Below are positions 3,500-57,966 of a stretch of 64,000 nucleotides of DNA, piece after piece. The stretch comes from Muricea muricata (lineage: Eukaryota > Cnidaria > Anthozoa > Malacalcyonacea > Plexauridae): contig OY979718.1 in the NCBI GenBank assembly GCA_963855995.1, forward strand, positions 27,146,282-27,210,281, read 5' to 3'. The notes beneath the pieces were generated by a model. That model did no database searches. It was not told where the DNA came from and saw nothing but the letters and a program-made list of their open reading frames with translations. The position numbers and the translations under genes were made by a program. The first letter of the stretch is position 1; every line of letters begins with the position of its first letter.

Positions 3500-6100
3500 G
3501 GGTCCAACGGCCGCAGGTGCCCCACATTGATATGTGCTTATACTGGTTAGCGCACGCTAATACAAGTCTATAAAGAATTGAAAACGGAAGTAAGTCATGC
3601 TTTGCGACCGGCGGCCATGTTAAATGGCCTCACTTGAGGAGTGAAGACTATAAATTGATATTAGAAATTTGAGATTTTTGCGTGTTTTTGCCTTTAATTG
3701 CTGTCGTACAAAATGAAGTCATTTTTTACATAATAAACACCATTCAGAGAAGAATAAAGGATTTTTATTTTTGAAAGAAATTAAATCGCAGGTAATTATT
3801 AATTTGATACTTTTACGACTGATTACGACCTGCTTTGATGGTAGAATATCAGACCAAACGGGGCGTCAGAACATCACTGTACTCGACACATTACAGAACG
3901 TAATCCAGTTTTTAGTACAAAATAGTCACTTACTGCAGTAACTAGACAGCTGCTTAAGTTTTTTGGTCGTAGAACGGAATTAATTGGCAGCATAACCTGA
4001 CAGCGTAAAGTGTATATGAAGTAATTGTAAATTTAACTTGTTTATATTTAGCCTGAAAAATTTGTTTAGATGATTTTAATCACTTAAAAGAGTTAAAGAC
4101 CTCTTGCTTATAGAAGCGAATTTGTCGAATAAAACTAAAGAGAAATTAAGCTGTATCGTTGACATTATTTCATGTAACCTGCGGTACTCAATACTATAGT
4201 TTATACTATAAACATTCATACAAGTAGCTACTGAGTTTGAGTCAGCTTGGGAAGGTCTCACTTAAGATCGAACCTCAAACTTTGGAGGTTAAAAACAATC
4301 GGTCTAAATATCATCTATGAAATGGCAATATCTAAAACCGAATTTTGTATGGTTGCTAAATACTGTAAATAGTAGCTAGGGCCCAGGGCTGTTAAACTGA
4401 CAGTATTTGCATTCATATGAGCCAGGCACCTGCTGAGCTAAAATAGTGCAATTAATTTTCTTGTGCAAATGTTTGGGAATTTCTTGTGCAAAAATTTGGG
4501 AAAATTTAAAATTTGTTAATACTTATATTTAGAAATATTGAATTACAATGGAAATGGGTGGAATTATTTCACTAACACAAATATGCATGGTTTCATCATT
4601 GCCAGACAGGTTAAACCGGAGTGGTCGACTTAATGCATTCATATGCGCGTATTTAAGGTGAGATATCGCTTTTTTCAGGCGAGATCATGCCAAGCCAGAC
4701 TGGACAGCTTTCCATATGAATGCGTTTTAAAAATATATCAAAACTATATGAGACAAGACCATGGCTAGCCTGGTTAAACAAGACTGCGCTGGCTCATATG
4801 GACATGCCCTAGGTATGTGAAAGTTTGTTTCATAACTGTAGATATTGTAAATATTCAAATTAATTTTGGTACTTTGTTTTAGTTTCAGAATTTATATATT
4901 GCTAGTGGTGTGAATTAAAGTTAACTCATAGCCAGGAAGATGTAATTTTTGTGATAATGAAAAATTATATTAGCTCAAAGTTGTGGTCATCTACTTTTAC
5001 TTTGTATTTCTACCACTAAATACCTTTCCAAGTTGTTCTTAGATAAATGTTTTAACTATTTTTGCCAGGAAAATGTGCGAATACCTGTTGGGATGACAAG
5101 AAACTCATCATTGCAGTTACTTGGCAAAACAATTTGTATAGACATTTTATTGAACAATGATTTGAAAATATATAAAGAAATAACTTTATTTTGCAGTTCT
5201 AATTTGACCACTAATATTTACAAGCCTTATTCTCTATTTAACATCTCAAATTACCAGCATTTTTTTATGCTAGGAAACATCCAACTGTGACATTAGACCA
5301 TCAACTACATAACAGTCCCGAAGAAAATGTCTTGTCTTTAATATGTACTTGATTGAACAGAATTCTATCGCCACAGTTCCTCCAATAAAAATATTTGCAG
5401 TATTCTGTTAGAAGTACAAAAGTTCTAAAGCTGGCACAGGGTATTGACTCGTCCATTTACAGCAACGGTTCCAGCCAATGAACATGTGTAGGCAATTATG
5501 TTGAACACAATCTTTCAGTGACAATCCTTACATTTGGCTGCAAGTGTGATATAAACTTAAATACAGATTATGTTATGACTATGCAGGTAAAATGATACCA
5601 CAAAACTTGCTTGCCTTAGGCGACATTTTTTCTGTTTTGTTTGAATCAGTATTCTTATACCTAAATAGTCGAATGATAAAGTATGCATCCATCTCTTATT
5701 GTTGCATCTTCGGCTAAAGTTATTATTTGCATCTTCGGCTCAAGTAATATCATTCACACTGCATATTTGACACTCCGTCACACTCGCTGTTGCGACGCAA
5801 AACTTCGGTTTCCCCGGCGATTCTGGACAGAAAAGCTTGTAATTTGCCTTTTAAGACATTCATGTTGTATATCGTAAAACAAGATTTTTTCGGTCTAAGG
5901 GTAGAGAAAGACGTTTTAACATGGAAAATTTCTTATTTTGTAGCAAAAACCTATAGTTTCATTCCTCAAGTGGGGCCATTCAACATGGCCGCCATCATAA
6001 AATGCGACGTACTTCCGGCTTCAAGCTAAACGCTCGGTGCGCTATCCGGTATAAATACATATCAATGGTGTCCCAGCGGATTTGGACCCTCCTAAAAATC
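3500..6100. mobile_element. Element bounded by diverged long inverted repeats
   Basis: The left block at about 3500-3720 and the right block at about 5880-6095 are inverted copies. The outer ends share CATTGATATGT, then a TTATAC and GCGCAC block. Further in, both carry a CGGAAGTA block and the motif AACATGGCCGCC (the reverse complement, GGCGGCCATGTT, on the left). Arms are about 150-200 bp with many differences. The interior (3720-5880) has no protein I recognise; its short ORFs look like chance. Probably an old non-autonomous DNA transposon. Confidence 0.45.
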
Positions 6101-10968: not shown

Positions 10969-12590
10969 TCAAATGAGCCCCTTAAAGGAAGTCAAAGTAT
11001 TGGCTTTTTTAGCTTCGACGCTTAAATTGTTCCACAAGAAAGCCCCATTATAGGAAAAACTCCTTTTTTTAAATTCAGTTTTGGGTTGAGGTAGCACCAA
11101 ATCAATATCACTATTTCGTAAATTATAAGAGATGGGACAATTACTCATTTTGTAAAACATGCGATTTAAATTTGGTGCAGCTAAATTATTTAAAATTTTA
11201 CACATGAAAATTGATTTCAGATAGTCTCGCCTTTTTTCTAAGGTTTCCCAGGCAAGTGTCTCGAAAACGTCAGCCGTCCTTATATCAGAAGTTGCTCCCG
11301 TTAATATTCTTGCTGCTCGATTTTGATATTTTTGTAATTTTTCTTTGAGTCCTATCCCACAGTTGTCCCAAAGAGGGCTACAATAATCGAAATATGGTTG
11401 GACTAGAGCATTATAAATTACTTTCAGCATCTCGGGAGGTACAAAGGGTTTTACTCGCATTATGGCTGCAATGCCAGCGGCTACTTTTTTACAGATTATT
11501 TCAATATGACTGTCCCAACACAGTTTATCATCCAAATTTACTCCTAGACACTTATAGTTGGTAACCCTAGGAACAGGTGTACTGTTAATTAGAATAGGCT
11601 CATTACAGATATTATTTTTTATATTATAAGAGGATCCTATGAACATGTATTTTGATTTTGTGGGATGGATTTGTAGCTTATTTTTTCTCATCCACCTACT
11701 CAAATTTTTTAAATCTTCGTTTAATTTGGAGATGAGATCACTACTGTTATCAGATGATGCATAAATTTCAGAATCATCAGCATATAGGGAGGGAGTAGTG
11801 TTATTCAGACTATTCGGCATGTCATTTATATATAATAGAAAAAGCAAAGGACCAAGAATAGAGCCTTGTGGAACTCCGCATATTATCTTTTTAGAAGAAG
11901 ATAACTGTTACGATACACTGTTGTTCCCTATCTTTGATGTAGGAATCAAACCATTTCAGCGCATTACCAGAGATGCCAAAATTTAGATTCATTTTGTTAA
12001 GCAATATTTCATGATTTATTGAGTCAAAAGCTTTCCTTATAGGAAAACCACACAGTTTATTTTCCCCACATCCATATTACTCAACCAATTATCGCACATT
12101 TGTATAAGTGCGGATACAGTGGAATGTTTTAGACGAAATCCAGATTGATGTTTTGAGAGTAGGTCATTGTCAGTTAAATAGCCATACAATTGCCGAAATA
12201 CTTCCTTCTCAAAAACTTTACTTATTTCTGGGTAATATAGAAATTGGCCTGTAATTTTCACATTTGGTTTTATCTTCAGATTTGTAGATTGGAGTTGCAC
12301 GTGCTCTTTTCCATTCGTTTATATAAATACCACTTTCAAGTGATAAGTTAAAGATATAGGTCAAAGAAGGTGCAATAATTTCGGCAGATAATTTTAAGAT
12401 TTTTGCTGGTATTTTGTCAGGTCCGGTAGACTTGTTAGCTTTCAGGTTGTTCAAGATCGAATAAACGTTATGAATTTCAATTTGGCTAAAATGAAAACTG
12501 GTATTTTGAGACAAACGAGCACCAGAAACATTTTCATTATTAAGGTCGTTATCAGACTCTTCATAAAACGAAATGTCATTTGCCAATTGT
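10969..12590 (-). pseudogene. LINE ORF2 reverse transcriptase domain, frameshifted
   Basis: RT read in at least three pieces. 12218-12586 carries the linker and the YKSEDKTKCENYRPIS block before motif A. 12037-12300, in another frame, continues with SKVFEKEVFRQLYGYL and the HQSGFRLKHST block. About 11848-12036 holds a damaged motif A to GVPQGS stretch with stops. 10969-11847 is open from the LGP-LLFLLYIND block through the catalytic YADD box to the family C-terminus (SFSYNGAFLWNNLS, residues near 11030). The role would be target-primed reverse transcription of the LINE RNA. The frame changes near 12250 and 11850, and the stop after the endonuclease at 12676, make it non-functional as read. 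Confidence 0.85.
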
Positions 12591-12675
12591 GGACCGATAT
12601 TGATGAAATAGTTATTTAGTGATTCAGCGATAAGTGTGAAATTAGTTATAGTATTATTATTTAACTTAAGTTCAT

Positions 12676-13791
12676 TTAATGGGTAGATTTACTATTCTTA
12701 CCAAGAAGTGAGTTAATTAAAGACCAGCTTTTTTTTGGATCTTTAATGTTCGCACAATCACGGATTTTATTAACAAAATATTCGGATTTAGTTTTCCGTA
12801 TATTTATGTTAACTTTATTGCGTGACTTTTTATAGATTTCCCAGTGATATTTAGAATTATTCTTAATTGCCTTCTTTTTATGGTAATCCCTGTTCCTTAT
12901 TTCATTTTTGATGATGGTAGTCATCCATGGGACGGCATTAACTTTAGTTCTTTTATATCTAAGAGGTGCGTGTGCATCAAGAATTTCAATGAAGAAAGAC
13001 TTCCAGACACACAAACATTCATTTGGATCAGAGAAAGTGGAGATTATTCCCCAAGGAACTTGCGATAGATCGTTATAAAAATCTCTATCAGAAAAATGTT
13101 TAAAGTCCCGTACCTCTCTCATAATGGACTTTGACTTTGGGAATACAAATTTTCTTTCAGCATAAATTAGACTATGATCAGAAATTCCTACATGAGAAAC
13201 GCCAGAAGAAACTATATTTTCTGGAGTATTTGATAAAATGAGATCAATGGTTGAGGCTGACGTTTCCGTGACTCTAGTGGGTTCATTAATAAAGTTGACC
13301 ATTTGGTATAAATTGTTTAAAGATGTAATTCTGTATGTGCATGCATCAGGAGGTGATTTATCAAGATCACAATTTAAATCACCCATTATAATCATTTCTT
13401 TATATTCAATATCGCATTTAAAGAGGAATAGTTCATATTCATTTATTATATTTAACTCCGAATTTGGAGGTCGATACCAGGCACTTAATAAAAACGGTTT
13501 ACTGTGTGGACGTTCAATTTCAATACAAATCATGTCTAGTTTGTCAGAAACTGGGTCATTTCTATCACGAAAAGATATCTGTTCTCTAACATAAATTACG
13601 ACACCTCCATTCCTGTTTCGATCCTTTCTAATTGATTTATAACTAGGTATGTTTATTTCAGAATCAGGTATGGAGGGATCGATCTTAGATTCATTAATAG
13701 CAAAGGTATCAAATACATGATTACTTAACATAATTCGGATCTCATCAATGTGTTTTAATAGGCTATTGACATTGAGGCTCGCAATTTTCAA
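12676..13791 (-). CDS. LINE ORF2 N-terminal AP-type endonuclease domain
   Basis: APE-like endonuclease that nicks target DNA for LINE insertion. Visible motifs in order are SLNVNSL at the N-terminus, the NESKID block carrying the catalytic Glu, GGVVIYVRE, WYRPPNS, MGDLNCD, STIDLILSN and the GISDHSLI block with the catalytic Asp-His. All expected catalytic positions appear present. The boundary given is the clear domain; the open frame extends upstream in frame through KQKGLKIAS to about 13870, overlapping the ORF1 stop in another frame, so ORF2 is probably translated by re-initiation or coupling. The frame ends in a stop at 12676, before the RT, which separates the two halves of a normally continuous ORF2. 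Confidence 0.9.
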   Translation of the reverse strand: MKIASLNVNSLLKHIDEIRIMLSNHVFDTFAINESKIDPSIPDSEINIPSYKSIRKDRNRNGGVVIYVREQISFRDRNDPVSDKLDMICIEIERPHSKPFLLSAWYRPPNSELNIINEYELFLFKCDIEYKEMIIMGDLNCDLDKSPPDACTYRITSLNNLYQMVNFINEPTRVTETSASTIDLILSNTPENIVSSGVSHVGISDHSLIYAERKFVFPKSKSIMREVRDFKHFSDRDFYNDLSQVPWGIISTFSDPNECLCVWKSFFIEILDAHAPLRYKRTKVNAVPWMTTIIKNEIRNRDYHKKKAIKNNSKYHWEIYKKSRNKVNINIRKTKSEYFVNKIRDCANIKDPKKSWSLINSLLGKNSKSTH

Positions 13792-13874
13792 ACCCTTTTG
13801 TTTGGTAATATTATTTAATGGTGACTCACATGCTTTAGACTTATCTAGTGAATCTATCTTCGTGTTTGCATCGA

Positions 13875-15605
13875 CTAAGTTGGATTTGTCATCGCCAGCG
13901 TAGTGAGATACTTTCCTAGTTGTAGAAGTTGAGCATTCTGAAAATCCTGTTTGCTTAATTGCTTATTTCTGCGTTTAGAGTATACTCTATTACGTAGAAA
14001 GTTAATAAAATTAACTGCTAAATAAGCTGTTCCTTTGGGATTTTGATGAAGTTTACTGCTATTCAGGGCAGAAGAGTTAATATTTGCATTATCTATAAAA
14101 GTATGTCCTTGACGTATACAAAAGCTACGAAGGTCTTTATTTGTTTGATTTAGTTTTTCGCCAAGGTCACAGTCCTTTCTGATTGTTAATCCTGAGATTC
14201 CAACTTTAGATTGAGGGAATTTAACTTTAATATGGTTCACGAGCTTTCCAATTTTAGTTGCGCAGGTTTTCGCTGTATCAGTTCGCAGATTGTTTGTTCC
14301 TGCATGAATTATAACATGGGATGGATTTTCCTGAAGTTGTATTGAGTCTAGCTGTTCAGAGATCTCTTCAGCCGTTTTACCTGCGAATTTATATTTCTTA
14401 ACTGGTTTCCTAGATAGTTTTTCAGGAATAATATCTTTGATAATTGAATCACCAATTATAACTACTGGACCTTCTAAGTTTTTACTAGCGTCAGTTTGAG
14501 CAGCACTGGCACCAATCTCGGCATCATTCTCAGTCTGGTTATCAAGCACTCTTGTTTTGGAAGTCGTGGGATTACTGGGATATGGTGTTGAGAGCAAATT
14601 GGTCAAATTCGGATTTTCCAACGGTGAAATTTGCCCTTGCGATAGAACGTTTGGTTCCACTTCATGAACTGACTCATCAACTGCTAATGCATTAAATCTA
14701 TTGTTTAGTTGTATTGTATTCTCCCCAGGCGGTAGTTTAGATGATTCCGTCTTTTGTGATTGTTTTTCAAATTCGGAAGTTTTAGTATTCCATTTTGCAG
14801 TTGTTTGTGTACTTGGATCACCACTTCCATATTCGTGTAAATTTTGATCAGACTGAAGCACTTTAATTACTGTTACAAGGCTCATTCTTTCACTCTCGAT
14901 AGCTTTTAGCTTAATATTCAATTCAGTCAAAGTGCTCGTTAAATTCGCATTTATTTCCCGAAGGGATATATTTTCCCTGTCGAGTTCGTCATTTTTATGC
15001 TTGAGTTGTTCGAGTTCTTTAGAGTTGTTTAATAAATTTAAATTTAAATCTTTGCCCTTCAACTGTTCAAGTTCAACATTTATCTTAGCAATTTTCTCGG
15101 AGTTAGATTGACATTCACTTACTTTTTGGGTTAGAGAATCTACCTGGAGCTTCAGAGTATGAACGAATTCATCCAAGATTGATTTGTTTCCATGCATGTT
15201 TGAAGATTCGTCATCACTAGTATAACTTTCAGCGATTGGACTTCCATGTCCTTCGTTCTCCAAGAGATGTTTATCCTGAAGTAATCGATCTATATTTCCC
15301 TCTACATGTATTACAGTTTCTTCGGCTTGACAAACTAAGATAGTTTTCAATTTTAGTTCAAAAGCAGCGGCTTTCTCCCCTTTGATCGTTAAATTTCCAG
15401 ATGAGGCATACCAGCGAATAGACACAACATCGCTTTCAATCATTTTACAATCGCCGCCAGGCGAACTCCATTTCGCATTAGGTAACGCAAAACAAATCAT
15501 AAAATCCCTTAAGTCTTCATAAGTACCGATCCATCTAAGGTTTTCCTTCTCTCCTATACATAGATATTGTGCAAAAGACATTTCATTGCAACAAGCCACA
15601 CTCAT
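13875..15605 (-). CDS. LINE ORF1 protein with coiled coil and SGNH esterase domain
   Basis: 576-aa, uninterrupted. The N-terminal ~100 residues carry a WSSPGGD segment I cannot assign. Residues ~145-250 are a long Leu/Glu/Lys coiled coil, likely for multimerisation. A low-complexity linker leads to an SGNH-hydrolase-like domain from about residue 380. Block I is GDS with nucleophile Ser387 (codons near 14445-14453), block III is GTNN at 436-439, and block V is SKLHQNPKG with His520. The Asp normally three residues before the block V His is Ser here. CR1-type ORF1 proteins carry such esterase domains next to RNA-binding functions; the exact role in retrotransposition is not settled. The ATG at 15605 fits the full-length alignment of this architecture, and the stop at 13875 overlaps the ORF2 frame. 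Confidence 0.88.
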   Translation of the reverse strand: MSVACCNEMSFAQYLCIGEKENLRWIGTYEDLRDFMICFALPNAKWSSPGGDCKMIESDVVSIRWYASSGNLTIKGEKAAAFELKLKTILVCQAEETVIHVEGNIDRLLQDKHLLENEGHGSPIAESYTSDDESSNMHGNKSILDEFVHTLKLQVDSLTQKVSECQSNSEKIAKINVELEQLKGKDLNLNLLNNSKELEQLKHKNDELDRENISLREINANLTSTLTELNIKLKAIESERMSLVTVIKVLQSDQNLHEYGSGDPSTQTTAKWNTKTSEFEKQSQKTESSKLPPGENTIQLNNRFNALAVDESVHEVEPNVLSQGQISPLENPNLTNLLSTPYPSNPTTSKTRVLDNQTENDAEIGASAAQTDASKNLEGPVVIIGDSIIKDIIPEKLSRKPVKKYKFAGKTAEEISEQLDSIQLQENPSHVIIHAGTNNLRTDTAKTCATKIGKLVNHIKVKFPQSKVGISGLTIRKDCDLGEKLNQTNKDLRSFCIRQGHTFIDNANINSSALNSSKLHQNPKGTAYLAVNFINFLRNRVYSKRRNKQLSKQDFQNAQLLQLGKYLTTLAMTNPT

Positions 15606-47289: not shown

Positions 47290-48832
47290 TTACATCAGTA
47301 TTATATGGTTCTTGTTTCGTTGGTTATGAATCATCAGTGCGGTAGGACCAGCAGCATGGTTGCAAAATCTTAACCGCCGTGAATTTCTTTCTATTGGTAA
47401 ATACAAGCATTCAACTTCATTACTTTCTGAGTAGCTAAGAATGTGGTATGATGTCATCCCTAACATCGATTCCTTTTTTACCAGAATTTCTATTTTTGAA
47501 GTAACGCAGTTGTAGCTTACTGCCTCGATATCATTTTTTACATTTATTGTTTGTTTTAACTTTCCCTCTTTCGTGTACAACTGCACACTTTGACGTGTAC
47601 GCATGATTATGTCGTCGTCGGTGACGCATTCCATGCTAATGTCGTCTTCTGAATGATGATAGCTTGAATTTCGTTCAAGTGACAAGCGAGATTTAAGGTT
47701 ACCGTTGATGTCGAAGACATAAATAGAATCATCCCCATTTTGGTGGATGAAAATATCGTTGTTTACACATAACTTTAGGGTTATGGATAATAAAAATTCA
47801 AATTCAAATTGTAGGTGCAACACACGTTCGTGTTGCTTTTTGCCTGTAAAATCATAAACGAACAGAACAAACACATATTTATTGGTAGCTCTATCATTAA
47901 ATTTGATAATAAGATAAACGTTGTCATAACGATCAATGGCGAATGCTTTTACGTGCTGGTCATCACCTTCAGAATTTGCTGTGGCATCTTGAATTTCACA
48001 AAAGCTTCTCATGCCGCGGCCTGATCTGTTTGCGATATCCATACAACTAGCATCCTGGTCTACCTGTAGAACCTCTCTTTTGCTATTAATGCAACAAAAC
48101 TTCAAACTTAATTTGTCTGAAATAAGCTGATTTTCTGGCAGTTGAAGTTCCTCCCTGTCAAAAATTTCCTTGACAACGTAAGGGTCAATAACGAGCGGGT
48201 GGATCGTTTCGCCTCTGATTTGAAGGTGTATTCTGGGCCAATTTGTGACGTCAGGTAACTCACCAGAGAACCTCGCAATAAAATCTGATATAGCAAAGTT
48301 GAAAGAGAGTACAGATTTCACGTTTTCTAATCGCGAATCTTTGTATACTCTGGATTTAATGCCGATTTAATGGATTTAAATATTTTTCTGCAGAAGCAAG
48401 TCGACCTGATGTGTTCTGTAGTTCATTGATCGCGGCTGAGAGTTCAAAGGCTTCGTTAAGAACTCCAGAGTCGCTTTTGTTTCTTGTGGTCGTTTCTGTT
48501 GTTTTACTTCCGCCATCTTGATCATGGTTTGCTCCGCCATCTTGATCATGGTTTGCTCCGTCATTGCTTATCTGTTCTTCTTTTGCTTCATCAAGTGCGA
48601 GATTGAGTGCGATTATACCTTCTTCCAGAAATGAATAGCTTGTGAGTAAATCTTTTCGTGCGAGTCCATCGATTTTTGTTTTGATACTGTTCAGGTCTTC
48701 GACAATCACATCTCGCAATTTCTCGTCTGTAACGTCTCCGTGTTCTTTGAGTTTTTCTGCCGCTGTGTTGCGAGCTTTATTCAACACTAAACCCAAAGTC
48801 GAGCTTATAATTTTGGCTATTACAGATAACAT
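47290..48832 (-). pseudogene. Broken two-part gene of a lineage-restricted invertebrate family
   Basis: The first part, 48832-48356 (158 aa), starts at an ATG with a hydrophobic helix then an amphipathic region (ARNTAAEKLKEHGDVTDEKL, KDLLTSYSFLEEGI) and a duplicated 10-residue run GANHDQDGGA. The second, 48321-47290, lacks its own ATG, enters at LENVKS, carries a WP(R)IHLQIRGETIHPL segment, then six to seven weak beta-rich repeats such as VFVYDFTGK and SIYVFDINGNLKSRL (NHL/beta-propeller-like). I recall proteins of this build, with both parts in one chain and about 100 residues between them, from cnidarians. Here the parts are only 34 bp apart, in different frames, with a stop. A deletion of the middle plus a frameshift is the simplest reading. 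Function is unknown. Confidence 0.55.
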
Positions 48833-48877
48833 ATTCGAATATGTTGAGCAGCAAAGCTATATGAATGAATACGTGTC

Positions 48878-49100
48878 TTAAAGGATCATTCGTTTTCTTG
48901 CCTCTAGAAAACGAAAATCGGTCGTCGGTTTCCGTTTTTCGTTTTTCAATTTCGAAAAACAACTTGGAAAACAAAATTAGCATGTACTTTAAATGTAGCT
49001 ACAACTGTTTCACAAATAAAAAAGTTAACAATGACGCCAACTTCGTTCGGAACCTTTTCGGGTGTCGGAAGTGGAACCCATTCGCACTCCCGGTTTTTTC
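48878..49100 (+). repeat. Dispersed repeat, copy 1 (inverted copy at 57012-57262)
   Basis: Shares CATTCGTT..AAAACGAAAATC, TTTTTCGTTTTTCAATTTC, TTGGAAAACAAAAT, AGCATGTACTTTAAATG and a CGTTCGG..TTTTCG..GGAAGT block with 57262-57012 read on minus. The minus copy sits directly 5' of a LINE fragment, so this may be a LINE 5' UTR or promoter module. Confidence 0.6.
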
Positions 49101-49934
49101 ATAGCATTAACAATATAATAGCAATGGCGGCATTTGGGAAACACAAAGGTTTTATTAAATAATTTTTGTGAAAGAAAGGAAACATCATAGACGATTTAGC
49201 GGGTGTTTTGCAAACAATATATGATAGTAATAATAATAATTTATTCACTTTGATATGAAACATATATTTATTTCTGTTTTAATACTCATTGTTTCACTCA
49301 AATTAATGTGAATGTTAAATGTTTGTACAGCTAATGGAACAGGCGTCCAAATGTCTTATTGTTAGATTAATTAATGTACATTTCACAATCTCCTACGTCT
49401 TTAACCTAAATATATCAACCTGTATTAGTGCCTGGTGATCAGTCTTGGATAGGGATTGTATGGAGCTCCTACTTTCTCGTACCAACTCATTGTATTGTTA
49501 ATTATTTGAAATAAAGACTTAAAAGAAAATTGTATTCACTCATTTGAGCATTCACTGATTAGAAGATCTCGCTTGGTTTCGAGGCCCTCGCGCAAAAGCT
49601 GAGTTGATCCCCAGAAGGCCTCGTAACAATTTAAATAGAGCGCATATAGTTTATGTTAAATACTCAAAGCGCTGTACATGTAAAAACCTATACTAAACGG
49701 TAAGTAGTATTATGACTCTAATATAGTAGGTAACGTTAAAATATGCACTAATGAATGATATCTGCGATAAGAATAGTAAAATACCAAATGTTCTTAAACT
49801 GTCCATTAAAGGTTAAAAGCCTTTCTAGAAAAGAACGTTTTCAAACGTTTTACAACGTTTTAAAAAGTTATGAAGAGCATGTTAGTCAGTTGAAACTTAT
49901 TAGTTTCAGCTGTCAAACTTGTAAGTTTTAAACG

Positions 49935-50025
49935 CGCAACTTGTAGTTTTGTGCGCGTAACTTGAAGTTTTGGTGCCGTAACTTCTAGTTTTGATGCCGT
50001 AACTTGTAGTTTTGATGCCGTAACT
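49935..50025 (-). promoter_or_regulatory. Left iteron array, five boxes at 21-bp pitch
   Basis: CGTAACT (AGTTACG on minus) begins at 49956, 49977, 49998 and 50019, with a variant CGCAACT at 49935. The spacing is exactly 21 bp, two helical turns, so all boxes face the same side. Likely transposase-binding sites. The 7-aa periodic ORF here (KLQVTAS type) is a by-product. Confidence 0.75.
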
Positions 50026-50553
50026 TTTCGCTTTGTGATTCCAAAATGATGAATATTGCAACACATACACAGTAGCGGAAATTATTTCAAAATTCGTTGC
50101 GAATTTTGGACAAAGTTGTTTTGATTGTTTTTCTGAAACTTTCACTTCCGGATTTCTTGATTGTTATTTGTCATTAATGTATAAAGAATATATCTCACGA
50201 GAAGTTTTTAAATAACTTTATTTGCTTTGATTTTGCATATGTTTTTTTACAACCTTGGAAAAGTACACAAATGAAAAAAAAACACTTTTCACAAACACAA
50301 TGTATCAGACAATTAGACAAATAGGTTCTTTCTTCTGTTCTTCACTGTCCAAAGAGGTCAATAGCACGGTCAATATTTAGCGATAATAACAGTAAATATT
50401 TCTACATTTCGGTATATTGAAATATTTTCAAAATTCCGACAAAACCGAAAATTCCCGACAAATTTTACAAAAGGTGAGGGCTGCACATATAGCGCGGTAT
50501 TACAAAAGCTTACCATAATACAGGGTGTACGAAAAAAAGTAGAAAAAATACAA

Positions 50554-51672
50554 ATGGCTTACAGAGTTAGCAAGCGTGGTCGAACATATCAACCCGGAGT
50601 AGCACTTTTTAATGATCTGAGAAATTTGATCATTTCTAACATAATATCTTCAGGCGGCGATCGTCTTACAGGCCACTTTCCCGGCACTTATTCAGAAATT
50701 GCAAATGCACTTAAAATATCACCACATGCAGTTAGTAAAATATGGAAGGATTTTTGTCACACACATGCATTTGAAAGTAAAAAACGCGGAGGAGATTTCA
50801 GTTCAAAGTTAACGGCAGGTGATCTGGAACTAATTGAAACACTGAAAGCAGAGAAGGGATCTATTTCCCTTCGCGAAATTTACGGATTACTAGAGGATTT
50901 GGGCGACGTAGATGGCGAAATTTCGTTATCGTCTATTTCACGTGCAATCAGAAATAAAATGCCATCTGGTAAAAAATATTCAAGAAAGAAAATCAGCCAT
51001 ATAGCGCGAGAAAGATTAACATACGATAACATTTTGTATACACAGTTTTTCATTGACTATTTAAAATCAAAAGACGTTCGGACAATAAAATTTTTCGACG
51101 AAGCTGGAATTAAAGTACCGGATGTTGGAACGCGACTGCATGGTCACTCACCCATGGGAGAGAGGTGCGTTGAAGTTATTCGTAAGTCAGAGAGTCCAAA
51201 CACTATACTCAATATGCTAGTTTCGTACGAGTGCGTCCAGTTTTATAATCTTGTTGACGGGGTAACTAACACAGTAGAATTTCTCAACTTCTTTCAAGAA
51301 GAAGCTGCAGGCGCAACCTTCATGCAAACTCTTCGACCCGTTCTAGATGTTGGTGACACCATTGTCATGGATAACCTAGCAGTTCACCATTATGAAGGTG
51401 GTGAAATTTTGGAAGATTTTTTATTCGAAAAGGGGATAGAACTTGTATTTACTCCAGTGTACTCACCAGACCTAAATCCCATTGAGATGTGTTTCAACAA
51501 AGTCAAAACAGCACTAAATCACGACCTACTAGAACTGGTGCACTCTAATCTTAAGTTGGCGTCTGCATGTGCGGTTGAATCGATTACCGAAATGGATATG
51601 CACGGATTCTATAGGCATACATTATACCTGGACATTAATGAGAGAGGAAGAAACGTTCATTGCAGTAACTAG
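50554..51672 (+). CDS. Tc1/mariner/IS630-type DDE transposase (DD37E)
   Basis: 372 aa, no interruptions. The N-terminal half has two helix-turn-helix-like units, at residues ~45-67 (TYSEIANALKISPHAVSKIW) and ~87-133 (LTAGDLELIETL through SLSSISRAIR), the paired-like DNA-binding layout of this superfamily. The catalytic core follows: D182 in FFDEAG, D273 in VMDNLAVHH and E311 in YSPDLNPIE, with 37 residues between the last two, hence DD37E. The enzyme would cut and paste the element at TA sites. The ATG lies 10 bp after ACGAAAAAAAGTAGAAAAAA, part of a CAGGGTGTACG motif at 50521. A G-rich dispersed repeat begins at the stop codon. All catalytic residues are present, so it could be active. Confidence 0.92.
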   Translation: MAYRVSKRGRTYQPGVALFNDLRNLIISNIISSGGDRLTGHFPGTYSEIANALKISPHAVSKIWKDFCHTHAFESKKRGGDFSSKLTAGDLELIETLKAEKGSISLREIYGLLEDLGDVDGEISLSSISRAIRNKMPSGKKYSRKKISHIARERLTYDNILYTQFFIDYLKSKDVRTIKFFDEAGIKVPDVGTRLHGHSPMGERCVEVIRKSESPNTILNMLVSYECVQFYNLVDGVTNTVEFLNFFQEEAAGATFMQTLRPVLDVGDTIVMDNLAVHHYEGGEILEDFLFEKGIELVFTPVYSPDLNPIEMCFNKVKTALNHDLLELVHSNLKLASACAVESITEMDMHGFYRHTLYLDINERGRNVHCSN

Positions 51673-53048
51673 CATTGGTAATGAGGGGGGGGGGGCTGTA
51701 GATATTCATGTACTCGTCAGTTCACAGACCTTCACAACACAATCAATATTATTTCAAAATCAATTAATAGGGCAGAACAAGAATATTCACCCTGCTGACA
51801 ATCATCGCCCTATAGTTACGCCCCTGAAAACATTAGCTGATGAAACTGAACACTAAAACTGAACACCAAAAAAACGAATTCATTCTTATTTTGTACAATT
51901 TCAATAAGATATCATGTGAACATTTATCGGTCACTATTAATTAATCAACTCAAAGACAAACGGTGTAATGAGAATTTCTTTAAATAATATTAATTTCATG
52001 TATGCTCATCGTTATGAGTCCTGCATATATACATAACTAACAAAATACTCTGACAAACATACTCATCCGAAGGGACATCGAAACGAAAAAGGGCAAGTGG
52101 AGCAAATCAAATGATGCAAATTGTTTTTAAAGGCCAGTTTTACTGACAACTGGTAAGTGTTTTTTGGTTGGACCGTGAATATTTATAACGCTCAAATGAT
52201 ATTTTCAGCGTTTATATATATCAGTGACATGCGTAACATTTATAGTAGTTTTCAACTGTTAAATTATGAAAACATTCTCATAATAGAGATGTAAAATGCC
52301 TCTCTATGTTTACAGTCCGGCAATAGAAGCGTTCCGAAAATATTTGACCAATTCATTAGCTCAAATTTAGCAGTTCCTCTGATCAATTCCTCAAAATTCT
52401 GAAAAGTTCCTTAAAAGATTCACAACTTCCTGTTAACTGGCCAATCAGAATGCTATATCTTATTTGTGAGCATTCTGATTGGTCAATAAACAGGAAGTTG
52501 TGAACATTTTAACGAACTTTTTAAAATTTTGAGAAATTGATCAGAGGAACTGCTAAATTTGAGGAAATGAATTAGTCAAACATTTTCGGAACGCTTCTAT
52601 TGCCGCGACTGTAAACGAGTTCACAAATTTTGATGCGAATTTGAAATAAGCGTTATTTTTAAACACTACGTACTGTCAACTGACCTCTTCAATGAATTAC
52701 AAGAAAAAATAAAAGTGTGTTTAAAATCTAAAGGGCAACTTCTGCCCCCCCCCCCTCCTTGGCAAAAGGCAAGGTGGGCAGCTACCCCCATTCTGCCCCC
52801 CAGTTTCAGTGTCCTTGCTCGTCTACTCAAGTGTAAGTTTGCATATTGTAAAACAATAAAATGTGAGAAGTCGAAATTCGTCGAGATTTTTTCACAAGTT
52901 TAATCTAATTATTTATTCAAGAACTGTATCTGAGATACAGCCCGCGGTACATCAAAGAAAACCGAGACAAAAATAAAATAATAATAGTTTAGATATCTAG
53001 GGTAAAATGTTTGACATAACAAACATATACATCTATGCAAATGATATT
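51673..53048. other. Region between the two convergent transposon genes
   Basis: Begins with a copy of the G-rich dispersed repeat (51672-51720, run of 11 G). Contains a foldback MITE at 52308-52615 and a C-run at 52746-52757. No gene is supported. Confidence 0.55.
52308..52615. mobile_element. Foldback MITE inside the transposon complex
   Basis: 308 bp, arms of about 140 bp: GTTTACAGTC, then GGCAATAGAAGCGTTCCGAA, with inverted matches TTCGGAACGCTTCTATTGCC and GACTGTAAAC. Inner blocks GCATTCTGATTGGTCAAT / TGGCCAATCAGAATGC close the hairpin. No target duplication was seen. Confidence 0.8.
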
Positions 53049-53424
53049 TCATGCATTGGACAGATCATGATTTCCAATGAAAGAAGAAAATTGAAGTAAT
53101 ACATTTGCACCATCACCTGTAATACCTTTGTCCTCTGTAACTGTGATATTTTCTTCCCCATCTACTTTGTCAATGGAATTATATCCAATTGCTTGGTTTA
53201 AGGTGACTGTAGATGATGAATGCTGTTTGGATATAGAGCTTTCTGCTGTCATATTGGCAGGGTAAAAACCAGTCTGAGTATCATAGAAACTTGCATTGCT
53301 TGGTACAGCAGATTCTTGAAACCAGTGTCTCTGAGCTGGATATTGCACTTGAGGATCAACATAGTAGGGATGCAGGAAAGGCACATTCCCACCAAAAAAG
53401 TGGTAATTCACTGCTCTAGTTATC

Positions 53425-53457
<33 letters not shown>

Positions 53458-53760
53458 GGTTGTGTTTGGGGGTGGTAGTGGGCGATGGTGGGCTGTGGTG
53501 GTGGACTAGGTGCCCTATTTCCAATGCTAGCACTTGCTAAAAGAGCAATTTGTAGCTGTTCGTCTTCCTCCTCTTCTTTTGTGGTGGGCATGTATCTAGG
53601 TGGGTCATCATCACTATCCGATGCCTAGGACTGCGATGGGAAATTAACCCCCCTGTTTTCCAAAGCGCACTTGAATGGATTCTCTCTGGGCGTTTTCTTT
53701 GCATGTTTTGATTGCCCGAGAGAGTCGTTTTTAAACGGCTTTGGAACTTCGTCTAAAGCA
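53049..53760 (-). pseudogene. C-terminal part of the PB1/zinc-knuckle gene, separated by frameshift and stop
   Basis: The frame is open from about 53775 (LPPKHELKTVLSHALDEVPK) but is shifted relative to the upstream ORF and is crossed by one TAG near 53626, between SQS and ASDSDDD. The downstream ORF 53591-53049 (180 aa) has a Glu-rich start (KEEEEDEQLQIALLASASIG), a Pro/His/Thr-rich stretch, aromatic residues and a hydrophilic end. Read together with the upstream ORF it looks like the tail of the same protein. Function unknown. Confidence 0.6.
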
Positions 53761-53776
53761 TGAGAAAGTACTGTTT

Positions 53777-54808
53777 TCAATTCATGTTTTGGCGGTAGTT
53801 TTCCGTTGAAATGTTTTTTGCAGTAGCCCTGTAACGGGTATACATGCTTTCGAAGACGCTGCCAATTTCGATAACCATTTTCCTGATACGTTTCTTAGCC
53901 CTCTTCCAAAAGTGCTTGTTCAATTTGATGTGAAAACGAACTTTGCACTTTTCAGCAGACGTTCTGCGGTTTTCCATCTCAGATGATAACTGTGCTATTT
54001 CCTTTTCTAACTTATGAATTGATTGTTCAAGTTCTCGGCGTTTTGCTACCTCACCCGGGTGAAACTTCTCTTGTCCGCAACTGTTAAAAGTTTGGCAACG
54101 GTCTTGGGTACAATTTCGTGCAGTATGTCCTACTCGTAAATGGCAGTTGTGACATAATGAACCCTTGCCAACGTTGAGAGATTTCGCATCATTTATCTTC
54201 ATATTTAATTTTTCATATTCATATTCCTTTTCCTCCACTAATTCACGCTTAACTTCTAATTTAGTGTCGATTTTAGTTTGACAAGAAGTGATGTACCTCT
54301 GTAAAGGCGTTTCGTATTGCTCAGTTTCTTGATTGCTCTTAAATTCATGTTCAGTAGATTCGAATTCATTTTTGTGAAAATTAAGTCTCTTTTTTACTTT
54401 TCGAACTTTCGGGAAATTTGGGTCCTCACTTTTAGCTTTAGCGCTTGTTGTCTTTGTTGATAGTCCATCTTTTATATTATACATGGCTTTTTTTGCTGGA
54501 GATTTAAGGGTAGGCGTCAACGAATCACCGATCCTTATAGTTAACCGGTAAGCATCGTCATAGTTCGGAATTGGTTCTACACAGCGAAGTTCATCTTCGA
54601 AGTCTTCGTTACAAGTCATTGTAACAAATGTCTGCTCATCGTCTTTATACTGAATTCGCATTGACGAACGTTCTTGACATAATATTTGTTTGACTTTACA
54701 TGAAAACATTATGAAAGTCATTTGAGTCAATTCATTTCTATCTATGCTAATGTTTTTGCACCTTGCATACTCGGAACCGTAGAATACCTTGATTTTAACA
54801 ATCGTCAT
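53777..54808 (-). CDS. PB1-like / zinc-knuckle / coiled-coil accessory protein of the transposon
   Basis: 343 aa from an ATG 225 bp inside the inner right terminus. Residues 1-80 resemble a PB1 domain: basic VKIKVFYG with K5/K7 and the acidic OPCA-like YKDDEQTFVTMTCNEDFEDE (54-73), so it may pair with itself or others. A Lys-rich linker follows. A zinc-knuckle-like cluster is at C219-C222-H228-C233 (spacing 2-5-4, one residue longer than the classic), with C238, C244 and H250 possibly a second site. Residues ~257-283 form a coiled coil. The transposase gene faces it. An accessory role in DNA or RNA binding or transpososome assembly is an inference. The frame ends at a TGA from a frameshift; the original protein was probably longer. 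Confidence 0.65.
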   Translation of the reverse strand: MTIVKIKVFYGSEYARCKNISIDRNELTQMTFIMFSCKVKQILCQERSSMRIQYKDDEQTFVTMTCNEDFEDELRCVEPIPNYDDAYRLTIRIGDSLTPTLKSPAKKAMYNIKDGLSTKTTSAKAKSEDPNFPKVRKVKKRLNFHKNEFESTEHEFKSNQETEQYETPLQRYITSCQTKIDTKLEVKRELVEEKEYEYEKLNMKINDAKSLNVGKGSLCHNCHLRVGHTARNCTQDRCQTFNSCGQEKFHPGEVAKRRELEQSIHKLEKEIAQLSSEMENRRTSAEKCKVRFHIKLNKHFWKRAKKRIRKMVIEIGSVFESMYTRYRATAKNISTENYRQNMN

Positions 54809-55169
54809 TTTGTATCAGACGAAGCCAGTTAAAATATACTGTGTATATGTAATATCTTGTGGCGTGCTGGCGTCTAAACTTTGCAGGTCACGCCCACAAA
54901 ACTGCAAATTACGCGTTCAAATTTTACAAATTTGACAGCTGACACTAATAAGTTTCAATTGATTAACATGCTATTTATAAATTTTTAAAACGTAGTTTTA
55001 AATGCATGGTTAACGGTAGCTTGCAAGTGGTTGTAAAAAAATATATGCAAAATCAAAACAAATTTGTCCAAAATTCGCAAAGCCTGCCCCCCCCCCCTAC
55101 CTCTTCAACTGAATTTCCGCTACTGTATATGTGTTGCAATATCCATCATTTTGGAATCACAAAGCGAAA

Positions 55170-55260
55170 AGTTACGGCATCAAAACTACAAGTTACGGCA
55201 TCAAAACTACAAGTTACGGCACCAAAACTTCAAGTTACGCGCACGAAACTACAAGTTACG
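55170..55260 (+). promoter_or_regulatory. Right iteron array, five boxes at 21-bp pitch
   Basis: AGTTACG begins at 55170, 55191, 55212, 55233 and 55254, mirroring the left array in inverted orientation. Two degenerate boxes with the same 21-bp spacing (TCACG, then TTACG near 54890-54912) occur in the inner right terminus. Confidence 0.75.
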
Positions 55261-55382
55261 CGTTCAAAACTTACAAGTTTGACAGCTGAAACTAATAAAT
55301 TTCAACTGACTAACATGCTATTCATAACTTTTTAAAACGTTGTTTTGAATGCACGGTGAACGGTAGCTTACAAATGGTTGTA

Positions 55383-56944
55383 TGTATCGGGGATATGCAC
55401 GCCACCTTTAAATCATCAGCAAAGATGCCTGTTTCTATCGGCTTATTAAAAATAACAGTGAGTGACTCGGCAATTATGTTGGCGCTATCCTTTTAGAAGT
55501 TTCGACGATATTCGGTCATGTCCAGTTGCCTTGGAAATATTAATTTTCAATATTACATTTTTGACCTCAATTGATGAAAGTCTATTAATTTGAAAAAGGA
55601 CGATATACGTTTCTAATGCGCTATCACCTTTCGGTTGATCTTTTGCCAAAACAGTACCGATTCATTAAAATAAGTATTCAACGAATCGGCTATTTTCTCT
55701 GGCTCTGTTCAGTACGACTTGTTGGTTAATTACCAATTCGTTGATATTGGTCGTCTTAGATTTTTTATTTGTTAACTGATTGATAGTTTTCCACATTGTT
55801 TTGGGATCGTTTCTACACTGGTTCAACGCATCATTATAATAGTTGGCCTTAGTAGATTTTATCAAGCTGTTTAATTGATTTCTAGAAATGAATAGATCCA
55901 GTTTTGATTGACTTTTTCTTTAAAAAATCCCTTTCATAAATTTTCTTTTTAATTTCTAATGTTAACCAAGGTGCATGCTCAATCCGCACTCTCCTGGTAA
56001 TTGGAGGCGCATGCATATCCGCCACTAATAAAAATTTTCTTTTTCAGTCCTCCCAAAGCATGTTTGGGTCATCGTCTTGAGATTGGTTTTCAAGGATTTT
56101 GGCTAAATCCTGTTTAAATAGCTCTAGATTATAACGTTTCAACTGGCGAGTATTTATATTAGGCTGTTTGCGGGGGATAGATATTTTTCTATGAATGTAG
56201 CTAAATCAAATTGTGGTCACTCATACCAACATGATCGACACCAGATTTAATAATAGTTTCAGGCCGATTACTAAAAGCCAGATCAATGAGTGTTTGAGAT
56301 TGACTAGTAATTCGTGTTAGTTGGTTCTTTAATAAGTTGCTCAAGCTAAAACATATTGGCCTAGTCAAATAATTTTTTGGTTTCATTTTTTCTGGACAAC
56401 CAATCACAATTGAAATCACCAATACAAATAATTTCTTTATTTTCATGATCTATTTTTTTGACAATTGATTCGTAATCTATAAACACATTTACCGGCATAT
56501 TTGGAGGCCTGTACTATGTGCTTAAAGAAATGGTTTTGCCTTTGGTTTGGTTCAACCGTGATTGTCTCTAAATTCTCTGGCATAATATAATTGACCGTGT
56601 TTCGAAAAAATATGGCTACCACACGACCATGCATGCCGGTTCCTATTTTTACGAATTAGGTCTTATCCATCTAAGTCTATCTCATGGTTGTTGATGCTAT
56701 TGTCTAACCATGCACGTTTCATTAACGCATATATAACATCATATTCATGATTAAGAGCATACATCCTGAGTTGATCAATATTATTAAGAATGCTTCTAAT
56801 GTTGGGTTGAGCTATTTTAAATCCCTTATTCAAACATTTTCTAGTTACACTAGCCCTACTTGTCTTATTGCCTGTTAATTCATTAGCTTTGCCCTTTATA
56901 TTATCTTTCAGTGAATGAGAAAGAGAATATCTAACTTGCATCAA
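55383..56944 (-). pseudogene. Decayed LINE ORF2 fragment (endonuclease and pre-RT linker)
   Basis: Minus-strand pieces in order: PNIRSILNNIDQLRMYALNH (near 56800), WLDNSINNHE, a VVAIFFRNTVNY segment, IVIGC (the GDxN motif, damaged), then TLIDLAFSNRPETI with GVDHVGMSDHNLI (endonuclease C-terminal motif, near 56210-56290). The linker CRNDPKTMWKTINQL (55770-55830) and the FADDLKVA..SPI stretch just before the RT follow. Homology stops at 55382, where the transposon complex begins; the RT that should follow is not seen in the window beyond the insertion. Several frameshifts and stops. It belongs to the same broad LINE group as the 10.7-15.8 kb element but is much older. Confidence 0.8.
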
Positions 56945-57011
56945 TATCCTTTGTTATGAAGCCGCGTCGTCGAGCCGCTGCGTCGTAAATCTTAAGGTCC
57001 CTAATAAATAA

Positions 57012-57262
57012 CCGGAGAGGGAGTCGAGTTCTACTTCCCATCCTCGAAAATGCCCCGAACGATGTTTGCGCCATTGTTTATTTGGAAAATTGCATGGGAA
57101 ACAAAATTTGTTTCAAAATCCGATTTCCGTTTGTCATGTGCTCGGAAAACAGCTGGCATTTAAAGTACATGCTTATTTTGTTTTCCAAACTTTTCACTGA
57201 AATTGAAAAACGAAAAAGAAAATTGATTTTCGTTTTTCTTGAGGCCAGAGAACGAATGTCCC
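57012..57262 (-). repeat. Dispersed repeat, copy 2
   Basis: Inverted partner of 48878-49100. It lies directly upstream of the LINE endonuclease start on the same strand, which suggests a 5' UTR. Short ORFs across it are not supported as genes. Confidence 0.6.
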
Positions 57263-57966
57263 TTTATTACACGCATTAATGTGGTTATTGTAGATCGTTG
57301 GACACCGAGTCAGTTTAGCACTGGGTTTAATATTTACCAAATCTGCAATCTCGAGAGTAATGGGATAAAATCCGGATCCATGAGGATCCCAGTATACCCC
57401 ACGATTTCCATGTTTTTGCAAGAAGTTCCAGTTCCTCTAAAACCCGTTTCCACTTTCAGCAAAGAGATCTGCATGATAATTCAGACGCACTCTAATAAAT
57501 CTCTTTTAGGTGAGATATTTAGTTGCCCCTAACTCTACAAAAACGGAGGGGCCAGTGCTACCCAATAGTGGTGGAACAACCCGCGTATTTCACTGCTTTT
57601 ATTAATCAAAAAATGCAATTGACAGGTCAGCAACACAAAGGTTGCGCTTCTATTCTGTGTGAACGGAGCGTGGAGTACCTGCATGTCTGATATGAACACC
57701 ATTTTTGATTGGTTTTATGAAACAATTATGATTGATGGTCAGTGTTAATGATTCTCCTTTGGAAAGTCAAATCAGGATTTTTGTTACTCAGGGAAGGATA
57801 AGACTCGGATAGCAACATCACGGCAAACATTAATATAATTTCTATTTTTCAATCTTGGTAGTTTTGGAAGCCAATCTTAGCGCCAGTTGCCTATTGGTCA
57901 TTTGTGAACTGAATGCGCGAATGTGACGACGAAGCAAATTTAGATTCCGTAGACGGTCGGTAGCTA

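Follow-up and report, generated by a model that had tools for sequence, protein, structure and literature searches.

A two-gene DD37E transposon lineage in the genome of Muricea muricata pairs an IS630-Tc1-mariner transposase with a convergently encoded zinc-module protein

We analyzed a stretch of 64,000 nucleotides (nt) of the Muricea muricata genome (contig OY979718.1, positions 27,146,282 to 27,210,281 of the forward strand; hereafter, the window, with all coordinates counted from its first letter), in which sequence comparison within the window delineates a transposon at positions 49852-55382. Between two inverted arms, this element carries a transposase gene of the IS630-Tc1-mariner (ITm) superfamily on the forward strand and, convergent with it on the reverse strand, a gene encoding a second protein, which we denote the partner, with a Cys/His-rich module (zinc module) at its core. 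The two genes almost certainly form one mobile unit and are inherited together. For the system as a whole, we lean toward the explanation that this is a two-gene, cut-and-paste ITm transposon in which the partner serves as a dedicated cofactor that gathers the transposon ends.

The surveyed genome assembly comprises 453 Mb in 74 contigs, with the window located on contig C3. Six-frame searches of this assembly yielded 115 transposase matches, which collapsed into 96 clusters, and 92 partner matches, which collapsed into 80 clusters; a partner was sought within 8 kb of each transposase cluster. In the first partner search, 51 of the 96 transposase clusters had a partner nearby, convergent in 50 cases, where random placement predicts 0.27. 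A second round, with the partner cores of the distant and the intermediate clade as queries, added 43 and 70 matches. After all partner searches, a convergent partner was present at 73 of the 96 clusters (50 from the first search, 21 from the searches with the distant and intermediate clades, and 2 from inspection of fetched DNA alone), compared to a chance expectation of about 0.6 at most, with all partner places pooled; one more cluster had a partner in another orientation, and for 22, none was detected. In the sole non-convergent case, the partner adjoins, and belongs to, a second transposase cluster. The convergent arrangement extends across the family, being found in 21 of the 22 clusters with a transposase at least 56% identical to that of the window, 30 of 42 at 40-55% identity, 10 of 20 at 33-39% and all 12 at 29-32%.

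Because the partners evolve fast, apparently lone transposase clusters were inspected individually. Among six such clusters for which additional DNA was considered, three (L080, L081, and L085) have a diverged partner that is recognized by the profile. Two loci among those with the most distant transposases, at 29-32% identity (L083 and L084), contain a convergent open reading frame (ORF) whose core is likewise of the zinc/coiled-coil type but beyond the reach of the profile. At 21 of the 22 partnerless clusters, fewer than 300 amino acids (aa) of the transposase were matched. Partnerless matches of about 216-230 aa, at 34-39% identity, occur at C2:9.96M, C3:32.65M, C5:4.24M, C13:8.88M, C3:56.75M, and C3:56.79M; these may be a separate subset, possibly truncated or containing a single gene.

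Besides the element in the window, 14 elements were assembled from overlapping loci, all with a transposase and convergent partner sequence and 13 with both genes between inverted arms; the 14th, on C6, has lost its right end, its identity to the C9 element stopping at position 4279 of the 4723 positions of the latter. Two elements on C10 have the same flanks and so represent one segmental duplication. According to the genome search tables, both genes are open in 11 elements, namely, C1_37.21, C1_49.85, C1_81.74, C15_9.66, C7:6.38M, C9_6.10, and C2:4.97M, and four distant-clade copies on C3, C7, C1, and C4, in which the partner core is 99-100% identical and the partner frame spans 393 codons, with an undefined N-terminus. 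Several copies are nearly identical from the left element border inward: C9 and C2:4.97M over the 2831 bp compared (99.72%), C9 and C6 over 3046 bp (99.64%), and C15 and C7 over 3154 bp (99.87%). In all three pairs, the flanking DNA beyond the border does not align, and we take these near-identical copies at different sites to be recent insertions of the two-gene unit. The TA target is general to the Tc1/mariner superfamily, and of 13 independent elements (the C10 pair counted once and the window excluded), 12, all except C2_71.4, have TA immediately adjoining both ends; in the window copy, TA is readable at the right end only. The combination of a TA target with terminal inverted repeats is that of the ITm superfamily.

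The partner and the transposase share their history. Tree distances for the partner core and the transposase are strongly correlated (Mantel r 0.970, 0 of 9999 permutations) across 26 of the 27 elements tried, the remaining locus not reaching the partner; in a set of 17 elements, restricted by removing near-identical copies and the two most divergent elements, r is 0.936 (again, 0 of 9999 permutations). The proportion of nonsynonymous differences (pN) is below that of synonymous differences (pS) in all 10 intact-partner pairs, with ratios of 0.39-0.71, and in all 15 transposase pairs, with ratios of 0.26-0.51. Taken together, the co-occurrence, the congruent trees, pN<pS in intact partners, and the near-identical copies of the unit identify the partner as a gene of the element. 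This is what the original prediction, made from the sequence of the window alone, had proposed, and the outcome that it had set against this proposal, namely, copies with a transposase only and a minus-strand ORF that belongs to the host or is an unrelated insertion, was not what we found in this genome.

The transposase of the window (50554-51672, forward strand) is a single open frame of 372 aa, intact as originally predicted. It matches the Pfam DDE_3 profile with an E value of 8.4e-18 and 65.1 bits (cut-off 28.6) and the NCBIfam IS630 family transposase profile NF033545 with 90.9 bits, under the curated cut-off of 100. Residues D182, D273, and E311 are invariant in an alignment of nine transposase sequences, with 37 residues between D273 and E311, and hence the DD37E designation; a DDE_3-type transposase with a D, D, E triad belongs to the ITm superfamily. 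In IMG/VR, the transposase of the window had no relative, and the transposase alignment retrieved 25 loci at 24-47% identity, which we take to be probable bacterial IS630-like elements.

The partner gene of the window is broken and comprises three pieces on the reverse strand: the 5' part of 343 aa (53777-54808), with a PB1 domain, a coiled coil, the zinc module, and another coiled coil; the middle part in a shifted frame (53628-53894; profile match of 81 bits); and, behind an in-frame stop, the 3' part, in another frame than the 5' part (53049-53624), with a stretch that, by eye, resembles a ubiquitin-interacting motif (UIM) and a proline-rich tail. Thus, the PB1, Cys/His, coiled-coil, and proline-rich parts that had been read in this gene are all present, but not in one ORF. 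With its partner gene out of frame and carrying an extra stop, and its left terminus truncated (see below), the window copy is damaged. The match of the 343-aa product to Pfam PB1, 23.9 bits, is barely over the cut-off of 23.6. The zinc module has the form C-x2-C-H-x4-H-x4-C-x4-C-x5-C-x5-H, with the cysteines and histidines kept in relatives, and in a low-confidence model of the protein, it lies between two helical stretches (168-210 and 251-342). No relative of this protein was found in IMG/VR, where the zinc-motif pattern occurs in six contigs, none of them encoding a resembling in-frame relative, and the partner core had no match in GTDB contigs.

Elsewhere in the family, five intact partners measure 476-567 aa. 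An alignment of eight divergent partner cores shows complete conservation of C, C, H, H, C, C, C, G, and H in the zinc module and, further downstream, of individual L, G, and P residues; some members of the family also have conserved stretches near NW.LL.KHV...NGKIP and HG(V/I).FP after the module. Basic clusters resembling nuclear localization signals are visible by eye after the PB1 part in several partners (for example, KKRKVK in C15). A profile search of the Protein Data Bank yielded no significant match of the partner to known structures. In the most distant clade, an ORF upstream of the partner core (L083, 333-770) encodes a different N-terminal piece, not PB1, which is perhaps a first exon. 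A shift of frame at about the same position in several subfamilies raised the possibility of a conserved intron or of programmed frameshifting in the partner gene. This was rejected: the five intact members read straight through, and four close copies show scattered private indels.

The inverted arms of the window element (49852-50083, forward strand, and 55112-55343) are 232 nt long each and 97% complementary, and they bear the iterons that had been predicted, 21-nt direct repeats at 49924-50035 (forward strand) and 55160-55271; the score at lag 21 exceeds that of all 200 shuffles in both arms (p 0.005). When lags of 8-60 were scanned in windows of equal length, with ties split, 10.5 of the 22 arms from 11 other elements had their best lag at 21 or 22, as did 8.62 of 161 windows from element interiors and 5.25 of 118 from the flanks. 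By the shuffle test (200 shuffles per arm, with p uncorrected across 26 arms), lag 21 or 22 is significant, with p of 0.005-0.04, in both arms of the window and C15 elements, the left arm of C9, and the right arms of C10 and C1_81; the right arm of C2_71.4 is significant at lag 27. The repeat units vary in sequence among subfamilies, and the spacing stays, a pattern that suggests a spacing-sensitive, multivalent binder. Arms of the window type have at least 94 matches in the genome, in at least 39 clusters (40 of the 122 candidates were scored): 4 clusters include transposase sequence, 26 consist of two inverted arms with a span of 309-1410 bp, in the manner of miniature inverted-repeat transposable elements (MITEs), and 9 have one arm, two of which are the right arms of the window and C3:34.95M copies. 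Given the many MITE-like arm pairs without a transposase, the ends look as if they are mobilized in trans.

Under the explanation that we favor, the DD37E transposase would cut and join at TA, and the convergent gene would provide the dedicated cofactor, with the zinc module between coiled coils as the family core and PB1 in front in many members. The partner would self-associate via PB1 and the coiled coils, and the zinc module would bind nucleic acid, most likely, the arm repeats with the 21-22-nt period. By coating these repeats, the partner could gather both ends and recruit or import the transposase, much as the second, Myb-like protein does in PIF/Harbinger; TnpA of maize Spm, a binder of subterminal repeats, is another parallel. 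The proposed end-gathering role itself is plausible, although we would put its chances at slightly short of even.

Several observations weigh against this explanation or narrow it. The survey is of one genome, 22 of the 96 transposase clusters have no detected partner, and inspection of the fetched DNA of one of these, L082 (C10:4.78M), revealed none. Selection can be stated as pN<pS only, rather than as dN/dS, because the synonymous sites (dS) are saturated. Among the 14 distinct partner sequences scanned, PB1 is at or above the Pfam PF00564 cut-off in seven (window, the N-terminal fragments of C15 and C9, L067, L058, L072, and L070) and below it in the other seven (C1_49, with 19.2 bits, C1_37, C1_81, L074, L083, L084, and L085), of which the L083, L084, and L085 ORFs were scanned without a full N-terminus and the upstream ORF of L083 separately. 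Structure predictions from the single sequence, which had been suggested as a check of the minus-strand product, were poor for the partner and for its PB1 part (mean predicted local distance difference test (pLDDT) scores of 52 and 44), so that PB1 and the zinc module are left without fold support. In C1_49.85, C1_61.30, and C3_21.53, the best lags of the arms differ from 21 and 22 and are non-significant, and the two arms of any one element do not count as independent. Finally, DNA binding by the partner, its oligomerization, and its requirement for transposition are inferred.

Possibly, although we consider this unlikely, the partner, while encoded by the element, acts after or beside cutting and does not bind the ends, being a regulator, an RNA-binding protein, or an anti-silencing factor, for instance, an integration factor like mudrB or a ribonucleoprotein like gag. 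In having two genes and long arms, the element resembles MuDR, in which the arms are promoters, mudrB is needed for integration, and the transposase is enough for somatic excision (PMC8224964). The zinc module also weakly resembles retroviral nucleocapsid knuckles, with E values of 1.1-2.3 in one search and 1.5 in another, but these matches are not significant; furthermore, the periodic arm repeats suggest a binder of repeated sites, which weighs against this reading.

A more elaborate form of the end-gathering explanation, which in our view is rather improbable, would cast the family as an ancient, recently active two-component lineage whose autonomous members all need a polymerizing zinc protein: polymers formed through PB1 and the coiled coils on arm sites two DNA turns apart would yield a filament or condensate that joins the ends, a ubiquitin-binding helix would exploit the host ubiquitin/SUMO nuclear machinery, and the partner would be a p62/NBR1-like scaffold turned transposition factor. 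The related notion that the partner is primarily a ubiquitin- or SUMO-linked adaptor tying the transposase to host ubiquitin and nuclear-body machinery appears even less probable. It draws on the domain logic of p62 and NBR1, which combines PB1, zinc, and coiled-coil modules with a ubiquitin-binding helix. The C-terminal part of the partner contains a conserved acidic-helix stretch that, compared by eye with the consensus sequences of UIM and of the motif interacting with ubiquitin (MIU), is UIM-like in C15 and L074 and MIU-like in C1_37 and C1_81. In a Pfam scan of five C-terminal fragments, C15 matched UIM with E of 0.064 and 13.6 bits, the best UIM score, against a cut-off of 21, and C1_81 matched part of zf_UBZ, a ubiquitin-binding zinc finger, with E of 0.0091 and 16.1 bits, against a cut-off of 25.6. 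In the Protein Data Bank search, the PB1 region was matched with 1wj6 (KIAA0049; E of 0.15), which we take to be NBR1, and a coiled-coil stretch resembled the deubiquitinase USP28 (E of 0.12-0.25). However, all the ubiquitin-linked scores are under the cut-off or not significant, and three of the five fragments match nothing in Pfam.

A reading of the minus-strand gene as part of the host, or as a passenger caught by chance between the arms, might be surmised from the first partner search, in which 30 of 80 partner clusters did not rank as nearest partner to a transposase cluster within 8 kb. For the family, this reading is refuted by the co-occurrence (convergent in 73 of the 74 placed cases, with transposases down to 29% identity), the tree congruence, and the near-identical copies of the unit. 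One of the apparent orphan partners, L074 (205-1373 and 1308-3858), belongs to an element that has arms and a long open partner ORF but retains only a remnant of the transposase; this element is non-autonomous yet encodes the partner, and next to it lie two ORFs resembling genes from a different mobile element. Individual orphans among the partner genes could nevertheless be domesticated.

The borders of the window element differ somewhat from the original estimate of 49853-55380. The right end, refined to 55382 (...GGTTG|TA), includes an outermost segment (55344-55382) without a counterpart at the left end of the element in the window. Both ends of the C25 copy carry CAACC...CAAAACAACG, and the left end in the window starts only at ACAACG, so that it lacks about 38 nt that are present at the right end and in the C25 copy. 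Two copies of the right end exist, an inner one at 54884-55035 and an outer one at 55231-55382, which are 86% identical and each end in GGTTG|TA; the doubled region (54884-55382) is also matched twice by the C25, C3:34.95M, and C3:16.18M copies. To the right of the element lies a degraded, minus-strand long interspersed nuclear element (LINE), whose reverse-transcriptase homology, by comparison with the other LINE of the window, stops no more than two codons from the element end. The left flank (48.0-49.9 kb) has no match to this LINE at an E value of 0.01. Because the LINE homology reaches the right border but was not found in the left flank, the left junction looks rearranged, and therefore no target-site duplication can be demonstrated for the window copy. 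We read this as insertion into the LINE followed by deletion or rearrangement at the left junction.

Between the two genes, a palindrome at 52318-52605 was considered as a functional intergenic hairpin, a possibility that was rejected because it is a dispersed MITE, with at least 80 matches in the genome on both strands (40 of the 938 first-look candidates were scored) and a 97% identical copy in the same place in the C3:16.18M and C3:34.95M elements. The window contains two LINE remnants with endonuclease and reverse-transcriptase pieces, both on the minus strand (10969-15605, which includes an upstream ORF of 576 codons, and 55383-57000). A stretch of about 130 nt, 79% identical and in opposite orientations, flanks the element on both sides (48865-48995 and about 57157-57280) and is probably another repeat. 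The region 47290-48856 contains two long minus-strand ORFs, of 358 and 166 codons, that resemble parts of a host gene; the 166-codon ORF has no Pfam match.

Tc1/mariner elements are textbook one-gene transposons and the base of genome-engineering tools. The premise that they encode only a transposase holds for most, but the window family, with a convergent second gene in 73 of 96 clusters, does not conform to it, and among ciliates, Tec, TBE, and Paramecium ITm elements carry extra ORFs (PMC7325037, PMC5405496). In the TBE elements of Oxytricha, the Tec elements of Euplotes, and the Paramecium elements, as in the window family, the ITm transposase is accompanied by additional ORFs, one of them reversed in TBE and Tec (PMC4724952, PMC7325037, PMC5405496), and the 57-kD ORF of TBE contains a zinc finger, as the partner does, but also a kinase domain (PMC4724952). 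The ciliate elements, with ORFs compared here by description only, differ in having at least three ORFs and, in Tec and TBE, a DD34E rather than DD37E transposase; the recombinase ORF of Tec and the largest Paramecium elements is not part of the two-gene element. Searches of an open-access library revealed no Tc1/mariner element with a PB1 or zinc-knuckle partner, subscription papers and Repbase being outside the scope of this search. Extra ORFs in this superfamily are already known from ciliates, and the partner family may be new, although there is real uncertainty in this respect, as it may already be catalogued as a repeat consensus.

Among other DD37E groups, TRT, Mosquito (MS), L18, and L31 share the signature, by which alone they were compared (PMC7325037), and TRT is described as 1,563 bp long, with a transposase of 338 aa (PMC5630946), in contrast to the two-gene element described here. 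A functional parallel is PIF/Harbinger, which also has two genes: the second protein recognizes a subterminal motif of 9 bp, interacts with the transposase, and is necessary for localizing it to the nucleus, both proteins being required (PMC9710019). PIF/Harbinger differs in its transposase superfamily, in the typically 3-bp target duplications, and in its Myb-like/MADF partner. The window element lies outside that group, with a DDE_3 transposase and with no Myb or MADF domain among the partner matches listed (the best 25 of 42 families in one scan). The genes of maize MuDR (Mutator) are convergent. Like the present family, MuDR has two genes between long arms, of about 200 bp, and depends on the second gene for integration (PMC8224964), but it has a Mutator-like element (MULE) transposase and a different partner. 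PB1 is joined to a transposon-derived protein in the MUSTANG MUGB genes of plants (PMC3435246), which, in contrast, are domesticated host genes with PB1 fused to a MULE-type protein rather than a separate gene of an element. Some proteins annotated as uncharacterized PB1 or zinc-knuckle proteins may be transposon genes, and natural pairs with open frames are available for probing the role of the partner. The persistence, in a deep lineage, of a second gene that has kept pace with the transposase suggests that part of the superfamily is a two-protein system outside ciliates as well.

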